Of a DNA stretch of 64,000 bases, positions 39,547 to 48,113 are shown piece by piece. Every line of letters begins with the position of its first letter. Position 1 is the stretch's first letter. A program made the translations under genes and the position numbers. The stretch is from Halanaerobiales bacterium (lineage in GTDB: Bacteria; Bacillota; Halanaerobiia; Halanaerobiales; Halanaerobiaceae). The stretch is from the NCBI GenBank assembly GCA_016278485.1, contig JADQBT010000019.1:62001-126000 (forward strand), given 5' to 3'. The notes under the pieces are model-generated. The model did not search any database. It was given only the letters and a program-made list of their open reading frames with translations, and was not told where the DNA came from.

Positions 39547-40023
39547 TTGCTATATTTTTTATGGTTTATTATTATTTTATTCTTTATAATTGATCTGATA
39601 GGTGCTGTTTTACCAGCTTTTCCAGATGCTCTATTTTATTGGTTAGCTATCTTGCTTTATAGATTTACTATTTCTCAACAATTAAGTTTTTCATTTTGGG
39701 TAGGTGCTATTTTACTAACATTTATTCTTTATCTTGCTGATTATTTGGCAGGTGTTTATTTTATTAAAAAAGAAGGTGGTAGTACAACGTCGCTGATAGC
39801 AGCAGCTTTAGGTCTGATCGTAGGTTCTATTTTTTTCCCGCCATTTGGTGTAGTCATTGGACCTTTTTTAATGGTATTTGTAGTTGAATACTGGAAATAT
39901 AAAGATAAAAACAATGCCTTAAGAATTGCCAGAGGAACACTCTTTGCTTTTTTTAGTAGTACAGTAATGAAAATAATTTTACAGTTAGTGATGGTTGGAT
40001 GGTTTTTTCTGGAGATATTCTAG
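39547..40023 (+). CDS. DUF456 membrane protein
   Basis: The 158-residue protein is mostly hydrophobic with about four membrane helices and shows the DUF456 features: an N-terminal LIGAVLPAFPDALFY stretch and a glycine-rich central helix (AALGLIVGSIFFPPFG, then GPFLMVFVVEY). The function of the family is unknown. TTG start with GGAGGT. It follows the c-di-GMP gene by 18 nt and precedes the recombination operon by 19 nt. Confidence 0.82.
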   Translation: MLYFLWFIIILFFIIDLIGAVLPAFPDALFYWLAILLYRFTISQQLSFSFWVGAILLTFILYLADYLAGVYFIKKEGGSTTSLIAAALGLIVGSIFFPPFGVVIGPFLMVFVVEYWKYKDKNNALRIARGTLFAFFSSTVMKIILQLVMVGWFFLEIF

Positions 40024-40042: not shown

Positions 40043-42046
40043 ATGCAGAAATTGTTTTCAGGGTTATCTGGTACAGGTAAAACAAATAAATTATTTTCCA
40101 TCTATCAAAAATTAGCTATTGAAAATGGTTCTGATAAAATTATTTATTTTACTAGTAGTGCAAAAAAAGTAAATTTTTTGCGCAACGAATTAGAATTAGC
40201 AATTGGTGGTAACCTGCAAATCTATACATATTTTGGCTTTGCATTAAATGAAGTAAATAAATGGTGGCCAGTTTTGGAAAAAAGTCTTATTGGTAGTAAA
40301 ATGACTGTTGAGCCAACTTTTATGAATATAGAAACTTCACATTTTTTAATGAGTAATTATGTAGAAAAGTTTAGAAATAAACAAAGATTTTTTAGTAATT
40401 TAAAGGCAAAACCAGTACAAATAGCTGTTCAACTAATTGATAATTTGAATTTAACAGAAATGAACTTACTAACTCAAAAAGAGATGAAAAAAAGACTTTT
40501 GCAATGGGTAGCTGATGATAAAGAGAAAAAAGAAATTATGGAAGAAGCACTAATAGTGATGCATAAATTTCGTGATTTTTGCGAGAAAAATAGGCTAGTG
40601 GATTATTCCCTGGCCTTAAAGCTATTTAATAATAATCTATTAAATGCAAAATTTTATCAGAATCATTTAGCTCATAAATTTGATTATTTAATAGTTGATG
40701 AGCTTGAAAAAATGGTGCCAGCTGGTCAAAAGTTGGTAAATATTATGGCATCTATTACTAAAGATAGTTGGTATGCTTATAATCCAGCTGGGGGATTTAA
40801 CCGTTTTTTTGGCGGAAATCCAGCTTTAATCAAAAAAAATTTTTTAGAAAATAATAATGATCTTGAAATAGTTTTATTAAATAAAAGATATTTAGGAGCG
40901 GAAAAAGCTGCCGACCTGGCAGAAGATTTTGCTGAAGTAATAAATGGCAAGAAAAAAACAGCTAGTTCAGATTTAATATTAGGTGAGGTTGATAGTGAAT
41001 TAAGAGGCAATATGGTAATAAATATTGGGGAAAAAATAACTAAGCTGATTGAAAACGGTACTGAACCTGAGAAGATAGCTGTTATTGCACCTGCAGTAGA
41101 TAAAGTACTTGAGTTTAGTTTAGAATATTATCTAAGTCGGGTTGGGTATAAGTTAATTAATTATAATCGTTCGAAAAGATTGGTCGATCTACCATTTGCA
41201 AGGGCTATGCTGATTTTATATTTGTTGGTTATTGGTGAAACCACTGCTATTGGAGTTTCTGCATTACAACAGACTTTAGGTCTTTTACTAGATTTAGATC
41301 CGGTGAGAAGTATGCTTCTGGCCAGAAAAATGACTGCAGAAGGTATGCAGTTTATTGATCTTGATACGTATGGACTGCGCCAGCGTATTGGTTTCGAAAA
41401 GGGAGAGAAATATGATTTTCTCCGGGACTGGTTAGATAGTAATAGTTCTTTTGAATTTAATATTGAAGCCTTTTTTCAGCAGGTTTTTGGAGAAGTATTG
41501 GCACCACTAAAACCTGCCCCGGAAGATATAATGGCTTGCCGTCAGATGATTGAATCAGTTAGTCGTTTTCGGGAAACTATCTCTAATTTTAAAGATGAAA
41601 GTGACCAGGATTTGAGTCAAAGGTATCTAGCTATGATTTATGAAGGTACATTAGCCGCTGATGTGCTTTTTAATGATATTGAAAAAGAAGATAGGGTTTT
41701 GATGGCAACTCCATATAAGTTTCTTTTTGCACCTGAAATTAAGGATGTTGAATATCTTTTTTTAGTTGATATATCTAGTCAAAATTGGTTGCGAAGCATT
41801 GCTAAGGAATTATCAAATCCTTATCTTTATTCTCCCCAATGGAATAATCAATCAAACTGGAATGATCAAGCTGATCAACAGATTAGAAAAAATCAATTAC
41901 TTGATTTTTTAACCAATCTTTTTTTAAAAGTTAATAAAGGTATTTATTTAGCAGATAGTTATCTAGATAGTATGGGCTGGGAACAGGAAGGGCCATTATA
42001 TAACTGGCTAAAACCTGGACAGGGAAGTGGAAAGTATGCAGATTAA
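40043..42046 (+). CDS. AddB-like degenerate SF1 helicase subunit
   Basis: The 667-residue protein opens with a perfect Walker A at once (GLSGTGKT, residues 7-14), then a UvrD-like fold with motif II variant YLIVDELEKM and a Tyr/Gly-rich AYNPAGGFNRFFGG where UvrD has QxxYxFRG. A motif V-like LMATPYKFLFAPEIKDVEYLF is altered and motif VI lacks the usual Arg cluster. This mix of retained P-loop and lost motor motifs is typical of the AddB/RecC-type partner. No nuclease domain is fused. ATG behind AAGGTGAT; the end overlaps the next gene by 11 nt. Confidence 0.72.
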   Translation: MQKLFSGLSGTGKTNKLFSIYQKLAIENGSDKIIYFTSSAKKVNFLRNELELAIGGNLQIYTYFGFALNEVNKWWPVLEKSLIGSKMTVEPTFMNIETSHFLMSNYVEKFRNKQRFFSNLKAKPVQIAVQLIDNLNLTEMNLLTQKEMKKRLLQWVADDKEKKEIMEEALIVMHKFRDFCEKNRLVDYSLALKLFNNNLLNAKFYQNHLAHKFDYLIVDELEKMVPAGQKLVNIMASITKDSWYAYNPAGGFNRFFGGNPALIKKNFLENNNDLEIVLLNKRYLGAEKAADLAEDFAEVINGKKKTASSDLILGEVDSELRGNMVINIGEKITKLIENGTEPEKIAVIAPAVDKVLEFSLEYYLSRVGYKLINYNRSKRLVDLPFARAMLILYLLVIGETTAIGVSALQQTLGLLLDLDPVRSMLLARKMTAEGMQFIDLDTYGLRQRIGFEKGEKYDFLRDWLDSNSSFEFNIEAFFQQVFGEVLAPLKPAPEDIMACRQMIESVSRFRETISNFKDESDQDLSQRYLAMIYEGTLAADVLFNDIEKEDRVLMATPYKFLFAPEIKDVEYLFLVDISSQNWLRSIAKELSNPYLYSPQWNNQSNWNDQADQQIRKNQLLDFLTNLFLKVNKGIYLADSYLDSMGWEQEGPLYNWLKPGQGSGKYAD

Positions 42047-44264
42047 ATTAAGAGAAGGACAAGATAAAGTGGCAGAATACAGAGGAGGCTTATTGGCAGT
42101 GCCTGCTGTACCTGGTGCGGGGAAAACTACGGTACTCGCTTTTCTGGCTGCTGAATTAATAGCAGAGGATGAAACAGGGACTGCAGAAATATTAATTGTG
42201 ACTTATATGAATTCTGCTGTAGCCAATTTTCGTAGAAGAATTGGAGATTTTTTGGAAAATAAGGGTTTGCCCAGAAATAGAGGTTTTAAGGTTAAAACAC
42301 TACACTCATTAGCATTAAATATTTTAAAAGAAAAGCCAGAACTAGAACTTGTCAATGCTGATTTCAATATAATTGACAACTATCAACGTAATCAAATAAT
42401 CAATCAACTTGTAGGACGCTGGTTGGCGAATAATCAAGAGCGGATGATGAATTATTTTACACCAACTAATGATCAATATCGATATCATCAGCAATTGGAG
42501 AGATGGCAAGAAAAAGATTTCCCTGCCTATATTAAAAAGATGATATCTCATTTTAAAACAAATTTATTGAGTGCAAAGGATTTAAAAAAAATAATTGAAG
42601 AGGCAAGAAATTTGGGAAAAGCTGTTTATGATGGATATTTTACTTTTGCTGCTGAAATATATCAACTCTATGAACTGGCTTTAAATAGAGAAGGATATCT
42701 GGACTTTGATGATTTTATAGTTTATAGTTTGAAGTTATTGCGAAATGACAAAGAATTACAACAAAGAATTGCAGCAAAATACAGTTTTGTCTTTGAAGAT
42801 GAAGCACAAGATTCAAATAAATTACAAGAAGAATTATTATTTTTACTTGCTGGTGAACAGAATAATTTAGTCAGAGTTGGTGATAGCAATCAGGCGATTA
42901 TGGGTACTTTTACGGCAGCCGAACCATATATTTTTAGAGATTATTCTGAAAGAGAAGATGTTCAAGTTAGATCAATTACATTATCGAGTAGAAGTAGTAA
43001 AGATATCATCAATTTAGCTAACTATTTTGTAAGTTGGTCTGTAGAAAAATATCATGATTTTGCTAGAATGCCATTGGAAGAAAAATATATAAAGCCTGTT
43101 CCAAAGACAGATCCTTATCCAAATCCACGACCAGAAGGATATACAATTGGCACAAAAAAATTCTTTTTACAAGAAGACGAACTAAAGTTTCTGGCTGACC
43201 ATGCAACAAAGAGAGCAGAAGAAAACCATGAGGAAACCATTGCAATACTTTTACCTGCTAATTATTTGATCGATGAGTTGGTTAAGTATCTAGACAGAAA
43301 AGAAAGCAGTTATCAGTATGTTGGTAGGAAAAATATTGCCGAAGAAAAAATTAATGGTTTAGAAATATTACTTAAATATCTCAGTGAACCTGATAACAAA
43401 GTATATTTAAGAGAAGTCTTTTTGAGGATAATGAATGAAGATAATCAAGATGATGAGAATATTAAGGCTTTTATTGATAATATTTTGGCTGAATTTGCAG
43501 TTGAAGAATTAATCTACCCAACTGGAGGAGAACGAATTACAAATTTCACTACCCAGATTAGAAAAGACAAATATTTCGCATCATTTTATAAATTTTTGCA
43601 AAGGTTACGAGGCTGGTTACAGGCTTCGCTTGAGCTTCCCCCAGATGAACTTGTGTTATTTTTGGCAGACCGACTTGAGCTTACTAGTAATAGTCTGGCC
43701 ATTAGTCAACATTTAGCCTTGCAATTTAGTCAGATTCTTAATCAACACCCAGGCTGGCGTCTTGATCAATTAATGACAGACTTGCCTCGAATTAAAGAAT
43801 CACTAGTTAAATTTGCTAATACACTTGATGATATGGAAGGATTTAAACCTGAACCCGGAATAGTAACACTTTCAACCTTTCACGGAGCTAAAGGATTGGA
43901 GTGGGATACTGTTTATCTAGGTGCTTTAACCTCTGATAATTTCCAATCTGAATTAGATAATCGTTTTCAGGGTGAATATAATTATCTTGCAGATGAAGCC
44001 AATAATCCAGTAGCAGTTGCTAGGGCTGAATTAGCCAGATTGCAAGAAAGTTCTAATCAACATTCACCGGTTGAATCAGCCAGGTTAGATGTGATAGGTG
44101 AAAGAATGAGGTTGCTTTATGTGGGTATCACTAGGGCACGCAAAAACTTATTGCTGACAACTCATCAGGCTGTAACAGAAAAGTGGTTAAAAGAGCCAGC
44201 AGCAGCTTACTATGCCTTAGAAGAATATATTATGCAGGAAAGGAATAAATATAATGCTGACTAA
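42036..44264 (+). CDS. UvrD/AddA-like SF1A helicase
   Basis: The 742-residue DNA helicase has all motor motifs: I VPGAGKTTVLAF (about 24-35), II FEDEAQDS (near 255), III VGDSNQAIMGTFTAAEP, V TFHGAKGLEWDTVYLG (near 613) and VI LLYVGITRARKNLLL (near 692). It lacks the PD-(D/E)XK nuclease domain that ends AddA or RecB. It is distinct from the pcrA at 55267. ATG at 42036 behind AGGGAAG. It overlaps both its neighbours by 11 nt, so the three proteins are probably made in fixed ratio as a complex. Confidence 0.85.
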   Translation: MQIKLREGQDKVAEYRGGLLAVPAVPGAGKTTVLAFLAAELIAEDETGTAEILIVTYMNSAVANFRRRIGDFLENKGLPRNRGFKVKTLHSLALNILKEKPELELVNADFNIIDNYQRNQIINQLVGRWLANNQERMMNYFTPTNDQYRYHQQLERWQEKDFPAYIKKMISHFKTNLLSAKDLKKIIEEARNLGKAVYDGYFTFAAEIYQLYELALNREGYLDFDDFIVYSLKLLRNDKELQQRIAAKYSFVFEDEAQDSNKLQEELLFLLAGEQNNLVRVGDSNQAIMGTFTAAEPYIFRDYSEREDVQVRSITLSSRSSKDIINLANYFVSWSVEKYHDFARMPLEEKYIKPVPKTDPYPNPRPEGYTIGTKKFFLQEDELKFLADHATKRAEENHEETIAILLPANYLIDELVKYLDRKESSYQYVGRKNIAEEKINGLEILLKYLSEPDNKVYLREVFLRIMNEDNQDDENIKAFIDNILAEFAVEELIYPTGGERITNFTTQIRKDKYFASFYKFLQRLRGWLQASLELPPDELVLFLADRLELTSNSLAISQHLALQFSQILNQHPGWRLDQLMTDLPRIKESLVKFANTLDDMEGFKPEPGIVTLSTFHGAKGLEWDTVYLGALTSDNFQSELDNRFQGEYNYLADEANNPVAVARAELARLQESSNQHSPVESARLDVIGERMRLLYVGITRARKNLLLTTHQAVTEKWLKEPAAAYYALEEYIMQERNKYNAD

Positions 44265-45054
44265 TAAAAAAAATGAGATATACTATAGTCAATCTGCTCT
44301 AGATGTTTTTTTAAGTTGTAAGCGGCGTTTTCGTTATCGCTATTTAGATGGACTTTACTGGCCAAAGGATTGGGGAGTTGAAAGTAAACAGAAAGAAATG
44401 ATTGAGACAGGCAGAAGATTTCATTTATTAGCCCAAAGGTATTATAATTTAGAGATTGAACCTGAGCTTGATGCTGACTCAGAATTAAAAAAATGGTTTG
44501 ATAACTTGAAAAGATTTTTGCCTGCAAAAAATCAATGCCGGTGGTGGGCTGAACAGGAATTGAGGTCAAATCAGAATAATTTACGTCTTTTAGCCAAATT
44601 TGATCTAATAGCAATTCCTGAAAATAGTAAAAGAATAATTATTTATGATTGGAAAACAGGACATAAAAAGTTAGATTGTACAAAACTAGCAGAAACTACC
44701 CAGACTAAATTATATCTTTACCAGTTGGCAAAAGCAGGTCAACAGATTGAAAAAAGTTTTCCGATAAAACCAGAAAATATTTCTTTAATTTACTGGAATC
44801 CACGATTCCCAGATTTAAGTTGTCAGTATGCTTATCACGAAAAACAATTTGTAGCTGATTTTAACTATTTAAGTGATGTTATCCAAAAAATAATGGAAGC
44901 TGATGAATTTCCATTAACTGATAAGTTGGATACCTGTCGTTATTGTGAATATCGTCCCATCTGTCGTGATAAAAAACCGGAAAGATTAATTACACCAGAA
45001 GATGATTTATTAGATAATTTTTCTTGGTCAGAAATCGAAGAAATACAATTTTAG
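44254..45054 (+). CDS. stand-alone PD-(D/E)XK nuclease with Fe-S cluster (RecB/Cas4/AddB type)
   Basis: The 266-residue protein equals the C-terminal nuclease of AddB or a Cas4-like protein. Catalytic residues: His57 (GRRFH), Asp117 (LLAKFD), Asp132 and Lys134 (IYDWKTG), then QTKLYLYQL (QxxxY). Four cysteines fit an Fe-S staple: Cys22, Cys228, Cys231, Cys237 (CRYCEYRPIC). It overlaps the helicase gene by 11 nt. There are no cas genes here, so a resection nuclease acting with the two helicase proteins is the natural reading. Confidence 0.85.
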   Translation: MLTNKKNEIYYSQSALDVFLSCKRRFRYRYLDGLYWPKDWGVESKQKEMIETGRRFHLLAQRYYNLEIEPELDADSELKKWFDNLKRFLPAKNQCRWWAEQELRSNQNNLRLLAKFDLIAIPENSKRIIIYDWKTGHKKLDCTKLAETTQTKLYLYQLAKAGQQIEKSFPIKPENISLIYWNPRFPDLSCQYAYHEKQFVADFNYLSDVIQKIMEADEFPLTDKLDTCRYCEYRPICRDKKPERLITPEDDLLDNFSWSEIEEIQF

Positions 45055-45063
45055 GTGATGCTG

Positions 45064-47376
45064 ATGAGATTATTGAAAAAATCAATAGATACCAATCCAC
45101 CAGACTGGTTAGTAGAGTTAACTGGAGATGAGATTACAGCAACAATTCTTTATAATCGTGGTCAAAAAGATAGAGAAAAGGCACTGGAATATCTATTTCC
45201 AGAAAAATACACGCCGGTTCAAGTTGGAGAGTTTACTGGCATTGAAATTGCTTTAAAGCTTGTACAAAAACATATCAATAATAATAGCAATATCTTAATT
45301 TATGGGGATTATGACGTGGACGGAGTTAGTTCAACAACAATTCTTGTTGAAACACTTACCCAGTTAAATGCCAATGTAGATTACCATATTCCTGATAGAT
45401 TTAAAGAGGGATATGGAATGAATAAAAGTAGCATAGTTAAACATGCTGATAATGTAGACTTAATTATTACTTGTGATTGTGGGATTAGTAATCTGGAGGA
45501 AGTTGAACTTGCTAAAAAATTAGGCATAGAAGTCATAATAACTGATCATCATGATTTGCCGGAACAATTACCTGAGGCTGATGTAATTTTAACTCCAAAG
45601 TTTTTAGCTAAAGACCATCCTGCTTATTATCTGCCAGGAGCAGGTATGGCCTATCATTTTGCCAGAGCATTACTTTCTCATTATCAAGAAGAAGACTTTG
45701 CAAAAAAATTATTTGATATGTTAGTACTTGCTGTGATAGCAGATGTTGTTCCTTTAATTGGTGAAAACCGTTATTTATTTCAGATTGGTATTGACTATTT
45801 AAAAAATAGTGATAGACCTGGGCTTAAAGCATTATATAAGCAATTAGATTTAAAAAGAAACGATATAGATGAAAAGACTATTGGTTTTAGGCTTGGTCCT
45901 GTTATCAATGCAGTAGGAAGAATGGAACATGCCAGTAAAGCTGTTGATCTATTTTTAGCAAAAAAGGCAAATAAAGCTGCATCACTTGCAGCAGAGCTTG
46001 TAATTATTAATAAAGAAAGAAAAAAAATAGGTGAAAAAATATATCAGCAGATTACGGAGCAATTACTAGAAGATGTAGAGGAAGTAATTATACTTTATAA
46101 ACCAGATTGGCATCAGGGGATAATTGGTATAATTGCGGGTAGACTTGTTGAAGATTATCAACTACCAGTCCTGTTAATGACAGATCAAAGAGAAGGAGAT
46201 CTGTTAACTGGTTCAGCCCGTTCTCCTGCTGGAATAAATATAAATCTAATTTTAAAACAAGTTAGTAATTTGTTGGTTAAATATGGAGGTCATGCCGCAG
46301 CAGCGGGTTTTTCCTTAGAGAGATCTCAAATTGCTAAATTTAAAGAACAAGTTCAAGCAATTATTAAAAATAAACAGCATCAGGAGCAAGAGAAATTAAT
46401 TGAAGCAGATCTGGAGATAGATTTTAAGCAGATTGATTTAAACTTATATAATAATTTAAGGAAGTTAGCACCTTTTGGTGAACTAAATCCTGAACCTATT
46501 TTTTATAGTCCTGGAGTTAATGTTGAATATGATAGATTAATATCTGGGGGACGCCATCGAAAAATGATCATCAGTAATGGCAAGAAAAAAATGAAGGCAA
46601 TCTGGTGGTGGGGTGGTCAATATGAGCTATCAAATAAAGTCTCAGTTGCCTTTCAAATTGATTTAAATAAATATCAAGGTAAAGAAGAAATACAGTTAAT
46701 TATTAAAGGTGTAGAAGCTAGAGAGCAGATTAAGCACGCAAAAATAAAAAATAAAAATTTTCAGCAAGATTCACTAGTAAATAAGTTAAAATTAATTGAT
46801 TATCGTCAGCAAATTTTAGAAGATATTCCCGTCAATAAGCCTGGCTATCTTTATTTTTTTGAAGGTGAGGGTGAAACAAAACATTATCCTTTAGTAAATA
46901 GGTATTATAATCGCCAGGGAAAACGTTTATATTTATTGACAAATCCACCTAGTCTAGAGATATTGGCGGAAACTTTGCTACTATCTGAGGTAGAGGAATT
47001 GGTGCTGGTAAATAGAAAAACTAGACCAGTAAGAGTTGATATTTTTCTTAAGAAAATACTTGGAACTATCAAGTTTGCTATTCTTAAAAAGAGTGGTATT
47101 TTACATATTACTGAAATCGCTTCCCTACTGGGAGAGACAGAAGAGACAATTATAACTAGTCTCGAATTTTTAAAATTAGCTGGCAAAATTAATTTTAACT
47201 ATCTGACTTATCAAGAAATATTTATAGAAAAAATTGATCAAGCTAGCTCGGGTAAATTTCAATTAAAAAGGGAAGAATTAATAGGTCAGCTTAAAGAAAG
47301 TAATGCTTTTAGAAACTATTTAGTTACGCGAACAATGGATGAGATCAAAAATTTAATCATCACCCAATTGAAATAG
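45064..47376 (+). CDS. recJ: single-strand-specific 5'-3' exonuclease RecJ
   Basis: The protein (about 770 residues) has the DHH motifs YGDYDVDGVSST, CDCGISN and ITDHHDLPEQ, the DHHA1 segment GGHAAAAGFSL, an OB-like domain and a C-terminal extension with a predicted winged-helix (about 670-720) as in Gram-positive RecJ. The start could be ATG 45058 or 45064; I prefer 45064, which is better spaced from AGGTG at 45053-45057. It follows the nuclease gene directly, so it belongs to the same operon. Confidence 0.9.
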   Translation: MRLLKKSIDTNPPDWLVELTGDEITATILYNRGQKDREKALEYLFPEKYTPVQVGEFTGIEIALKLVQKHINNNSNILIYGDYDVDGVSSTTILVETLTQLNANVDYHIPDRFKEGYGMNKSSIVKHADNVDLIITCDCGISNLEEVELAKKLGIEVIITDHHDLPEQLPEADVILTPKFLAKDHPAYYLPGAGMAYHFARALLSHYQEEDFAKKLFDMLVLAVIADVVPLIGENRYLFQIGIDYLKNSDRPGLKALYKQLDLKRNDIDEKTIGFRLGPVINAVGRMEHASKAVDLFLAKKANKAASLAAELVIINKERKKIGEKIYQQITEQLLEDVEEVIILYKPDWHQGIIGIIAGRLVEDYQLPVLLMTDQREGDLLTGSARSPAGININLILKQVSNLLVKYGGHAAAAGFSLERSQIAKFKEQVQAIIKNKQHQEQEKLIEADLEIDFKQIDLNLYNNLRKLAPFGELNPEPIFYSPGVNVEYDRLISGGRHRKMIISNGKKKMKAIWWWGGQYELSNKVSVAFQIDLNKYQGKEEIQLIIKGVEAREQIKHAKIKNKNFQQDSLVNKLKLIDYRQQILEDIPVNKPGYLYFFEGEGETKHYPLVNRYYNRQGKRLYLLTNPPSLEILAETLLLSEVEELVLVNRKTRPVRVDIFLKKILGTIKFAILKKSGILHITEIASLLGETEETIITSLEFLKLAGKINFNYLTYQEIFIEKIDQASSGKFQLKREELIGQLKESNAFRNYLVTRTMDEIKNLIITQLK

Positions 47377-47429: not shown

Positions 47430-48113
47430 ATGAGAATTAATAACTATAGTTTAATTGAGGGTGCAGAGATGGCAGAGGGATTAACTGTTATTATAGATGT
47501 TTTCAGGGCATTTTCCACAGCCTGTTATCTGTTTGCAGCTGGAGTGGAAAAAATTATTCCAGTTGCCAGTCGCAAGGAAGCAGAAGCTTTAAAAAATTCT
47601 AATTCTGATTTCATATTATGTGGAGAAAGAGGGGGTAAAAAATTAACTGGATTTGATTATGGTAATTCACCTACTTTCTTAAAAGATCAGGATTTTAATA
47701 AAAAAACAATTGTCTTTTCAACAAGTGCTGGTACCAAAGGAATAGTGGCAGCTAAAAAAGCAGAGCGAATAATTACTGGTAGTTTTGTAAATTTTTCAGC
47801 TGTTATTAATTATATTAAGAAAATACAACCGGAAATGGTAAGTCTGGTTGCAATGGGTATTGGTGGCCAGAAAGCAGCAAGAGAAGACGAGTTATGTGCA
47901 GAGTTAATGAAGAAGGAATTAAAAGGTAACGATTTGCTTCATAATTATGATTTAAAAAGAAAGTTAGCAACAGCTGGTAATAGGTTTTTCTTGTCTGAAA
48001 ATCAGAATTTTTCTCCGAGAAAAGATTTTAGTCTCTGTCTGCAAGTTAATCGGTTTGACTTTGTAATAAAAGCAGTGCAGAAAGATAGAAATTATCATTT
48101 ACTTAAAATATAA
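47430..48113 (+). CDS. ComB-like 2-phosphosulfolactate phosphatase family protein
   Basis: The 227-residue protein resembles ComB, with IIDVFRAFSTACYLFAAG, LCGERGGKKLTGFDYGNSP and TSAGTKGI motifs and a late REDELCAELM acidic segment. In methanogens ComB acts in coenzyme M synthesis. This window has no ComA, ComC or ComDE, so the physiological substrate is unknown. ATG behind AAAGGAG. Separated by 53 nt from recJ. Confidence 0.8.
   Translation: MRINNYSLIEGAEMAEGLTVIIDVFRAFSTACYLFAAGVEKIIPVASRKEAEALKNSNSDFILCGERGGKKLTGFDYGNSPTFLKDQDFNKKTIVFSTSAGTKGIVAAKKAERIITGSFVNFSAVINYIKKIQPEMVSLVAMGIGGQKAAREDELCAELMKKELKGNDLLHNYDLKRKLATAGNRFFLSENQNFSPRKDFSLCLQVNRFDFVIKAVQKDRNYHLLKI

Follow-up and report, generated by a model that had tools for sequence, protein, structure and literature searches.

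A four-gene helicase-nuclease-RecJ operon of the Halanaerobiales as a candidate accessory DNA resection system beside AddAB

What do four adjacent genes encoding two helicase-like proteins, a separate nuclease and a RecJ exonuclease contribute to a bacterium of the order Halanaerobiales? The genes occur in a 64,000-nucleotide stretch of contig JADQBT010000019.1, which is the whole stretch of DNA analysed here and is referred to as the window. A sequence-only reading of this DNA had interpreted them as a split AddAB-like complex coupled to RecJ and standing in for AddAB in the source organism. AddAB employs one motor on the 3' strand and a separate channel for each strand, both channels ending at a RecB-family nuclease; Chi is read by the UvrD-like part of AddB, and degradation of the 5' strand goes on afterwards (PMC4027173). 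RecJ is a 5' single-stranded DNA (ssDNA) exonuclease (PMC1193525).

The four genes, with the coordinates and motifs first ascribed to them, were borne out by ORF calls, Pfam and NCBIfam searches and homolog alignments (Table 1). The 11-nt overlaps described between g1 and g2 and between g2 and g3 are real if the ATG at 42036 is taken as the g2 start. The upstream neighbor of g1, a gene for a 158-aa membrane protein (39547-40023), ends 19 nt before it, and the next gene downstream of recJ begins at 47430. That g1 to g4 form one transcript, possibly together with the membrane protein gene and the gene at 47430, is suggested by an AGGTG sequence before g1 and by intergenic distances that are short or negative. 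Several genomes of the same family retain the membrane protein gene upstream of g1, but it is absent from that position in the other families examined.

Table 1. Genes of the module and their positions in the window
Gene	Coordinates	Alternative start(s)	Strand	Product
g1	40043-42046	40040	+	Degenerate UvrD-fold SF1A protein, 667 aa
g2	42036-44264	42027	+	Complete UvrD/PcrA-like SF1A helicase, no nuclease domain
g3	44254-45054		+	Stand-alone Cas4/AddB/AdnA-like PD-(D/E)XK nuclease, four conserved Cys
g4 (RecJ2)	45064-47376	45055/45058	+	Module-linked second RecJ, DHH-family motifs intact

Distribution of the module was surveyed in 38 genomes of the order Halanaerobiales and in 398 genomes of the phylum Bacillota. 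The g1 gene is present in 25 of the 38, and strong matches occur in 27 of the 398, giving a patchy spread; seven more weak matches in the phylum sample were taken as generic helicases. Conservation of the gene order in relatives had been proposed as a check of the original reading, and the neighborhood survey found g1-g2-g3 together at each informative locus examined in the Bacillota. Among 30 loci, drawn from many families, 28 have recJ after g3 (13/13 in the order and 15/17 outside it), the exceptions being L124 and L127, where recJ is not adjacent to g3. All four genes also occur in identical order in a different phylum, on plasmid pSR56 of Salinibacter ruber M8 (NC_014028.1, 10001-17884), where they are annotated as hypothetical protein, ATP-dependent helicase, PD-(D/E)XK nuclease and RecJ; the plasmid also bears restriction-modification and toxin-antitoxin genes. 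Chance does not account for the four-gene arrangement, since the order recurs in Salinibacter as well as at each informative locus of the phylum. A lone g1-like gene with a degenerate UvrD fold was seen on megaplasmid pILYOP01 of Ilyobacter polytropus (L224:9001-10974), with no g2, g3 or recJ beside it. A scan of contigs with g1 peptide patterns gave matches confined to the Halanaerobiales and close relatives, a narrow range that reflects the narrowness of the patterns, and profile searches recovered more. A phage origin of the module was rejected, as no relatives were found among phage records or viral contigs.

The sequence-only reading had seen no addA or addB gene, which holds for the 64-kb window and fails for the genome as a whole. 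Contig C37 of the source genome contains overlapping addA-like and addB-like genes (L013:4878-10546). The AddA-like protein (1040 aa) has an IDFKTG nuclease motif at its C-terminus and scores 117.6 bits against the Gram-positive AddA model (cut-off 707.65), while the AddB-like protein (855 aa) has a C-terminal nuclease with Fe-S-type Cys residues, shows no P-loop in its N-terminus and is not matched by the AddB model TIGR02773. With one protein under its cut-off and the other unmatched, simple family searches miss this pair. Model-based surveys would call the order AddAB-negative. A genome search for addAB had been named among the checks that could overturn the original reading, and it returned an AddAB-like pair, though one that falls below the scores of the Gram-positive AddAB models. 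Given this complete AddAB-like pair on another contig, the idea that the four genes stand in for AddAB is not supported.

The resident AddB type is found in 32 of the 38 genomes of the order. Outside the order, the AddB_Gpos model matched 3 of 22 carriers, compared with 236 of all 398 genomes, and mutual exclusion between the module and AddAB was considered on account of this rarity. This idea was dropped because a nuclease-domain scan revealed divergent AddAB-like pairs, of one type or another, in most such carriers. In two genomes of one family (G041 and G088, both 99% complete), no second helicase-nuclease pair was seen. In one genus (L050, L051), two helicase-nuclease systems are neighbors, with resident-type addB and addA a few kb upstream of the module. 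The four genes form a system additional to AddAB and not a detached replacement for it.

The g1 protein falls below the Pfam threshold for UvrD (19.1 bits), and its AlphaFold2 model (pLDDT 81, pTM 0.76) has a full UvrD-type fold. In a structure search with this model, UvrD ranked first by E-value (4.5e-21). TM-scores were 0.57-0.61 for AddB, 0.59-0.63 for AdnB and 0.61-0.64 for AddA; compared with UvrD, these three gave similar or slightly higher TM-scores and lower rmsd, and the likeness of the predicted model to AddB is no more specific than its likeness to UvrD. Profile comparison gave no match of g1 to the resident AddB family or to TIGR02773, and a weak match to g2. Across 35 homologs, the Gly, Lys and Thr of the P-loop (Walker A) hardly vary and the Walker-B Asp never does, while the catalytic Glu position is occupied by Asp (19/35), Asn (13/35) or Glu (3/35). 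In these homologs motif III lacks its Gln, motif IV its Arg and motif VI its TRA, and a conserved EQ(E/D)G stretch lies close to the expected site of motif VI. The decay is alike throughout the g1 homologs, and the catalytic motifs of g2, g3 and RecJ2 are kept. Judging by these residues, g1 probably binds ATP and does not hydrolyse it. It is a degenerate SF1A protein that could act like the helicase-like region of AddB, since its predicted fold matches AddB, AdnB and AddA comparably with UvrD.

The description of g2 as a complete helicase free of a nuclease domain agrees with our data, in that SF1A motifs are intact in the 34 homologs examined and UvrD domains are the only ones present. Its closest solved structures are PcrA, Rep and UvrD, with AddA after them. 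The g3 protein, likewise recognized early on as a separate Fe-S-type PD-(D/E)XK nuclease, matches Pfam PDDEXK_1 with 107.5 bits (cut-off 22). Residues H57, D117, D132, K134 and Q150 and four Cys are present in 32/32 homologs, and the protein bears the Cas4-like pfam12705 signature (PDDEXK_1, H-D-DxK-QxxxY and four Cys); the four Cys form a probable Fe-S cluster. The best matches of its predicted model are the Cas4-family ACE1 and the AdnA nuclease. In a nuclease-domain tree, g3 proteins group as a single clade (support 1.0) that lies apart from the AddB, AddA and Cas4 nucleases sampled. A recent origin of g3 by fission of AddB was rejected on the basis of this separate clade and its long stem, in a tree with limited AddB sampling and weak deep branches. 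Pairwise distances of the four module proteins correlate (r = 0.71-0.88, uncorrected for shared ancestry).

The g4 protein scores 529.8 bits against the RecJ model TIGR00644 (NCBIfam; cut-off 396.9), and its DHH-family motifs are intact in 27 homologs. Two recJ genes are present in 24 of the 25 g1 carriers of the order, and in the single exception (G030) the module contig ends inside g2. By comparison, 12 of the 13 genomes of the order without g1 have at most one recJ, and the remaining one (G035) has a second recJ with a weaker match and an internal stop. In a RecJ tree, the module RecJs, including that of Salinibacter, are monophyletic on a long stem (support 1.0), and the 30 other RecJs of the order used for comparison all lie apart from them. 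The single clade and the two recJ copies in the order's carriers identify gene 4, by phylogeny and copy number, as a dedicated paralog of the module and not a relocated housekeeping RecJ. The coupling of the module to RecJ is thus firmer than first claimed.

We read the operon, with a probability of roughly 50%, as encoding an accessory machine that resects DNA ends or gaps and works beside AddAB; it would appear to be a second apparatus for trimming DNA ends that are broken or stalled. The g2 helicase would be the motor, moving 3'-5' (a polarity taken from its homologs) and unwinding the duplex. Its partner g1 would be a non-hydrolysing UvrD-fold protein that holds or scans a separated strand, like the N-terminal part of AddB. 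The Fe-S nuclease type of AddB and AdnA is assigned to the 5' strand, and g3, on its own chain, would cut the displaced 5'-ended strand, which RecJ2 would degrade further. The output would be 3' ssDNA at all times, as with AddAB post-Chi, because the module has no counterpart of the AddA nuclease, which cuts the 3' strand. We infer the g1-g2-g3-RecJ2 complex, its strand polarity and its in vivo role by analogy with these systems. More tentatively, the four components may make up a machine distinct from RecBCD, AddAB and AdnAB, in which the motor, the dead-helicase strand channel and the Fe-S nuclease each have their own chain and, together with a RecJ paralog of their own, would yield resection of the 5' strand only and free of a Chi switch. 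Counted against the model are loci L124 and L127 without an adjacent recJ and the solitary Ilyobacter gene; coexisting AddAB also leaves the need for the module without explanation.

The same proteins might repair gaps or forks rather than act on double-strand ends, with g2 as a RecQ/PcrA-like helicase for RecJ2 and g3 trimming flaps, and so feed RecFOR. RecJ partners RecFOR at gaps (PMC1193525), the closest solved relatives of g2 fit this role, no RecQ match was obtained in the source genome at the threshold applied, and ends are already served by AddAB in most carriers. However, RecQ is present in 16 of the 27 carriers of the phylum sample, and an Fe-S nuclease with a dead helicase partner is typical of end-processing complexes, so that gap repair seems to us rather unlikely. 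The notion that the module substitutes for RecQ was rejected on the same count of carriers. A looser arrangement, with g2 and g3 as a helicase-nuclease pair and with g1 and RecJ2 working separately, would accommodate the two loci where recJ is not next to g3 and the solo g1-like gene of Ilyobacter, but it is made improbable by the gene overlaps, by an order that is kept strictly across phyla and by the RecJ clade dedicated to the module.

Defense against phages or plasmids, through degradation of foreign linear or replicating DNA, is suggested by the patchy spread of strong matches (27/398), by the company of restriction-modification and toxin-antitoxin genes on the Salinibacter plasmid, and by the association of UvrD-Cas4 fusions with defense reported in the main text of PMC5704561. 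On the other hand, known defense systems give only generic GajB and Cas4 similarity, housekeeping genes make up most of the chromosomal neighborhood at the loci examined, and unfused Clostridiales UvrD/Cas4-like operons are deemed non-defensive in the same text; we regard a defense role as doubtful. Identity with a known defense system was rejected because the GajB and Cas4 matches are generic, and for Gabija no model of GajA, the OLD-family nuclease, matched any of the four proteins, the GajB matches being of the general SF1 kind. As for the replacement of AddAB from which the question arose, a similar set of parts and the two nearly complete genomes G041 and G088 speak for it, but AddAB-like pairs in the source genome and most carriers, the position of g3 outside the sampled AddB nucleases and the missing profile match of g1 to the resident AddB family render it very improbable, and for the source genome it is largely refuted.

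The likeness to AddAB in parts that was drawn at the outset was upheld: a live and a dead SF1A subunit are encoded side by side (34-35 homologs), together with an Fe-S nuclease of the RecB family. AddAB, however, fuses that nuclease to the C-terminus of its degenerate subunit and carries another at the C-terminus of its active helicase, whereas the module encodes its nuclease in a separate gene after g2, and g2 has none. The module further differs in its dedicated RecJ, its coexistence with true AddAB and its lack of demonstrable descent from AddB. AdnAB likewise has two UvrD-fold subunits, and g3 resembles the Fe-S nuclease of AdnA, but each AdnAB subunit combines a motor with a nuclease domain, and neither g1 nor g2 has such a domain. 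RecQ-RecJ of the RecF pathway also pairs a helicase with the 5'-3' exonuclease RecJ; its helicase is SF2 whereas that of the module is SF1A, and the module is a single operon with an extra nuclease, a dead helicase partner and a second RecJ.

Unfused UvrD and Cas4-like genes in a predicted operon, mostly in Clostridiales, were described by Hudaiberdiev et al. 2017, who suggested a role in repair (PMC5704561). These operons likewise place a UvrD-type helicase gene beside a pfam12705 nuclease gene outside a defense context and are probably the same g2-g3 pair; the g2-g3 association is therefore already known. The section on these operons describes no degenerate helicase partner, and the main text makes no mention of RecJ. 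Relative to the literature searched, four features appear to be new: the degenerate helicase-like subunit, the RecJ dedicated to the module, the module's coexistence with AddAB and the plasmid copy in a second phylum. If our reading is true, the module is a further architecture for producing recombinogenic 3' ssDNA in parallel to AddAB. Since its chains are separate, the contributions of the motor, the dead helicase and the nuclease could be told apart, which is hard in the fused AddAB and RecBCD. A RecJ paralog tied to a single helicase module would also represent specialization of RecJ for a fixed partner. In some Halanaerobium, an extra gene of ~200 aa lies between g3 and recJ (L042:8966-9586, L043:4385-4972).
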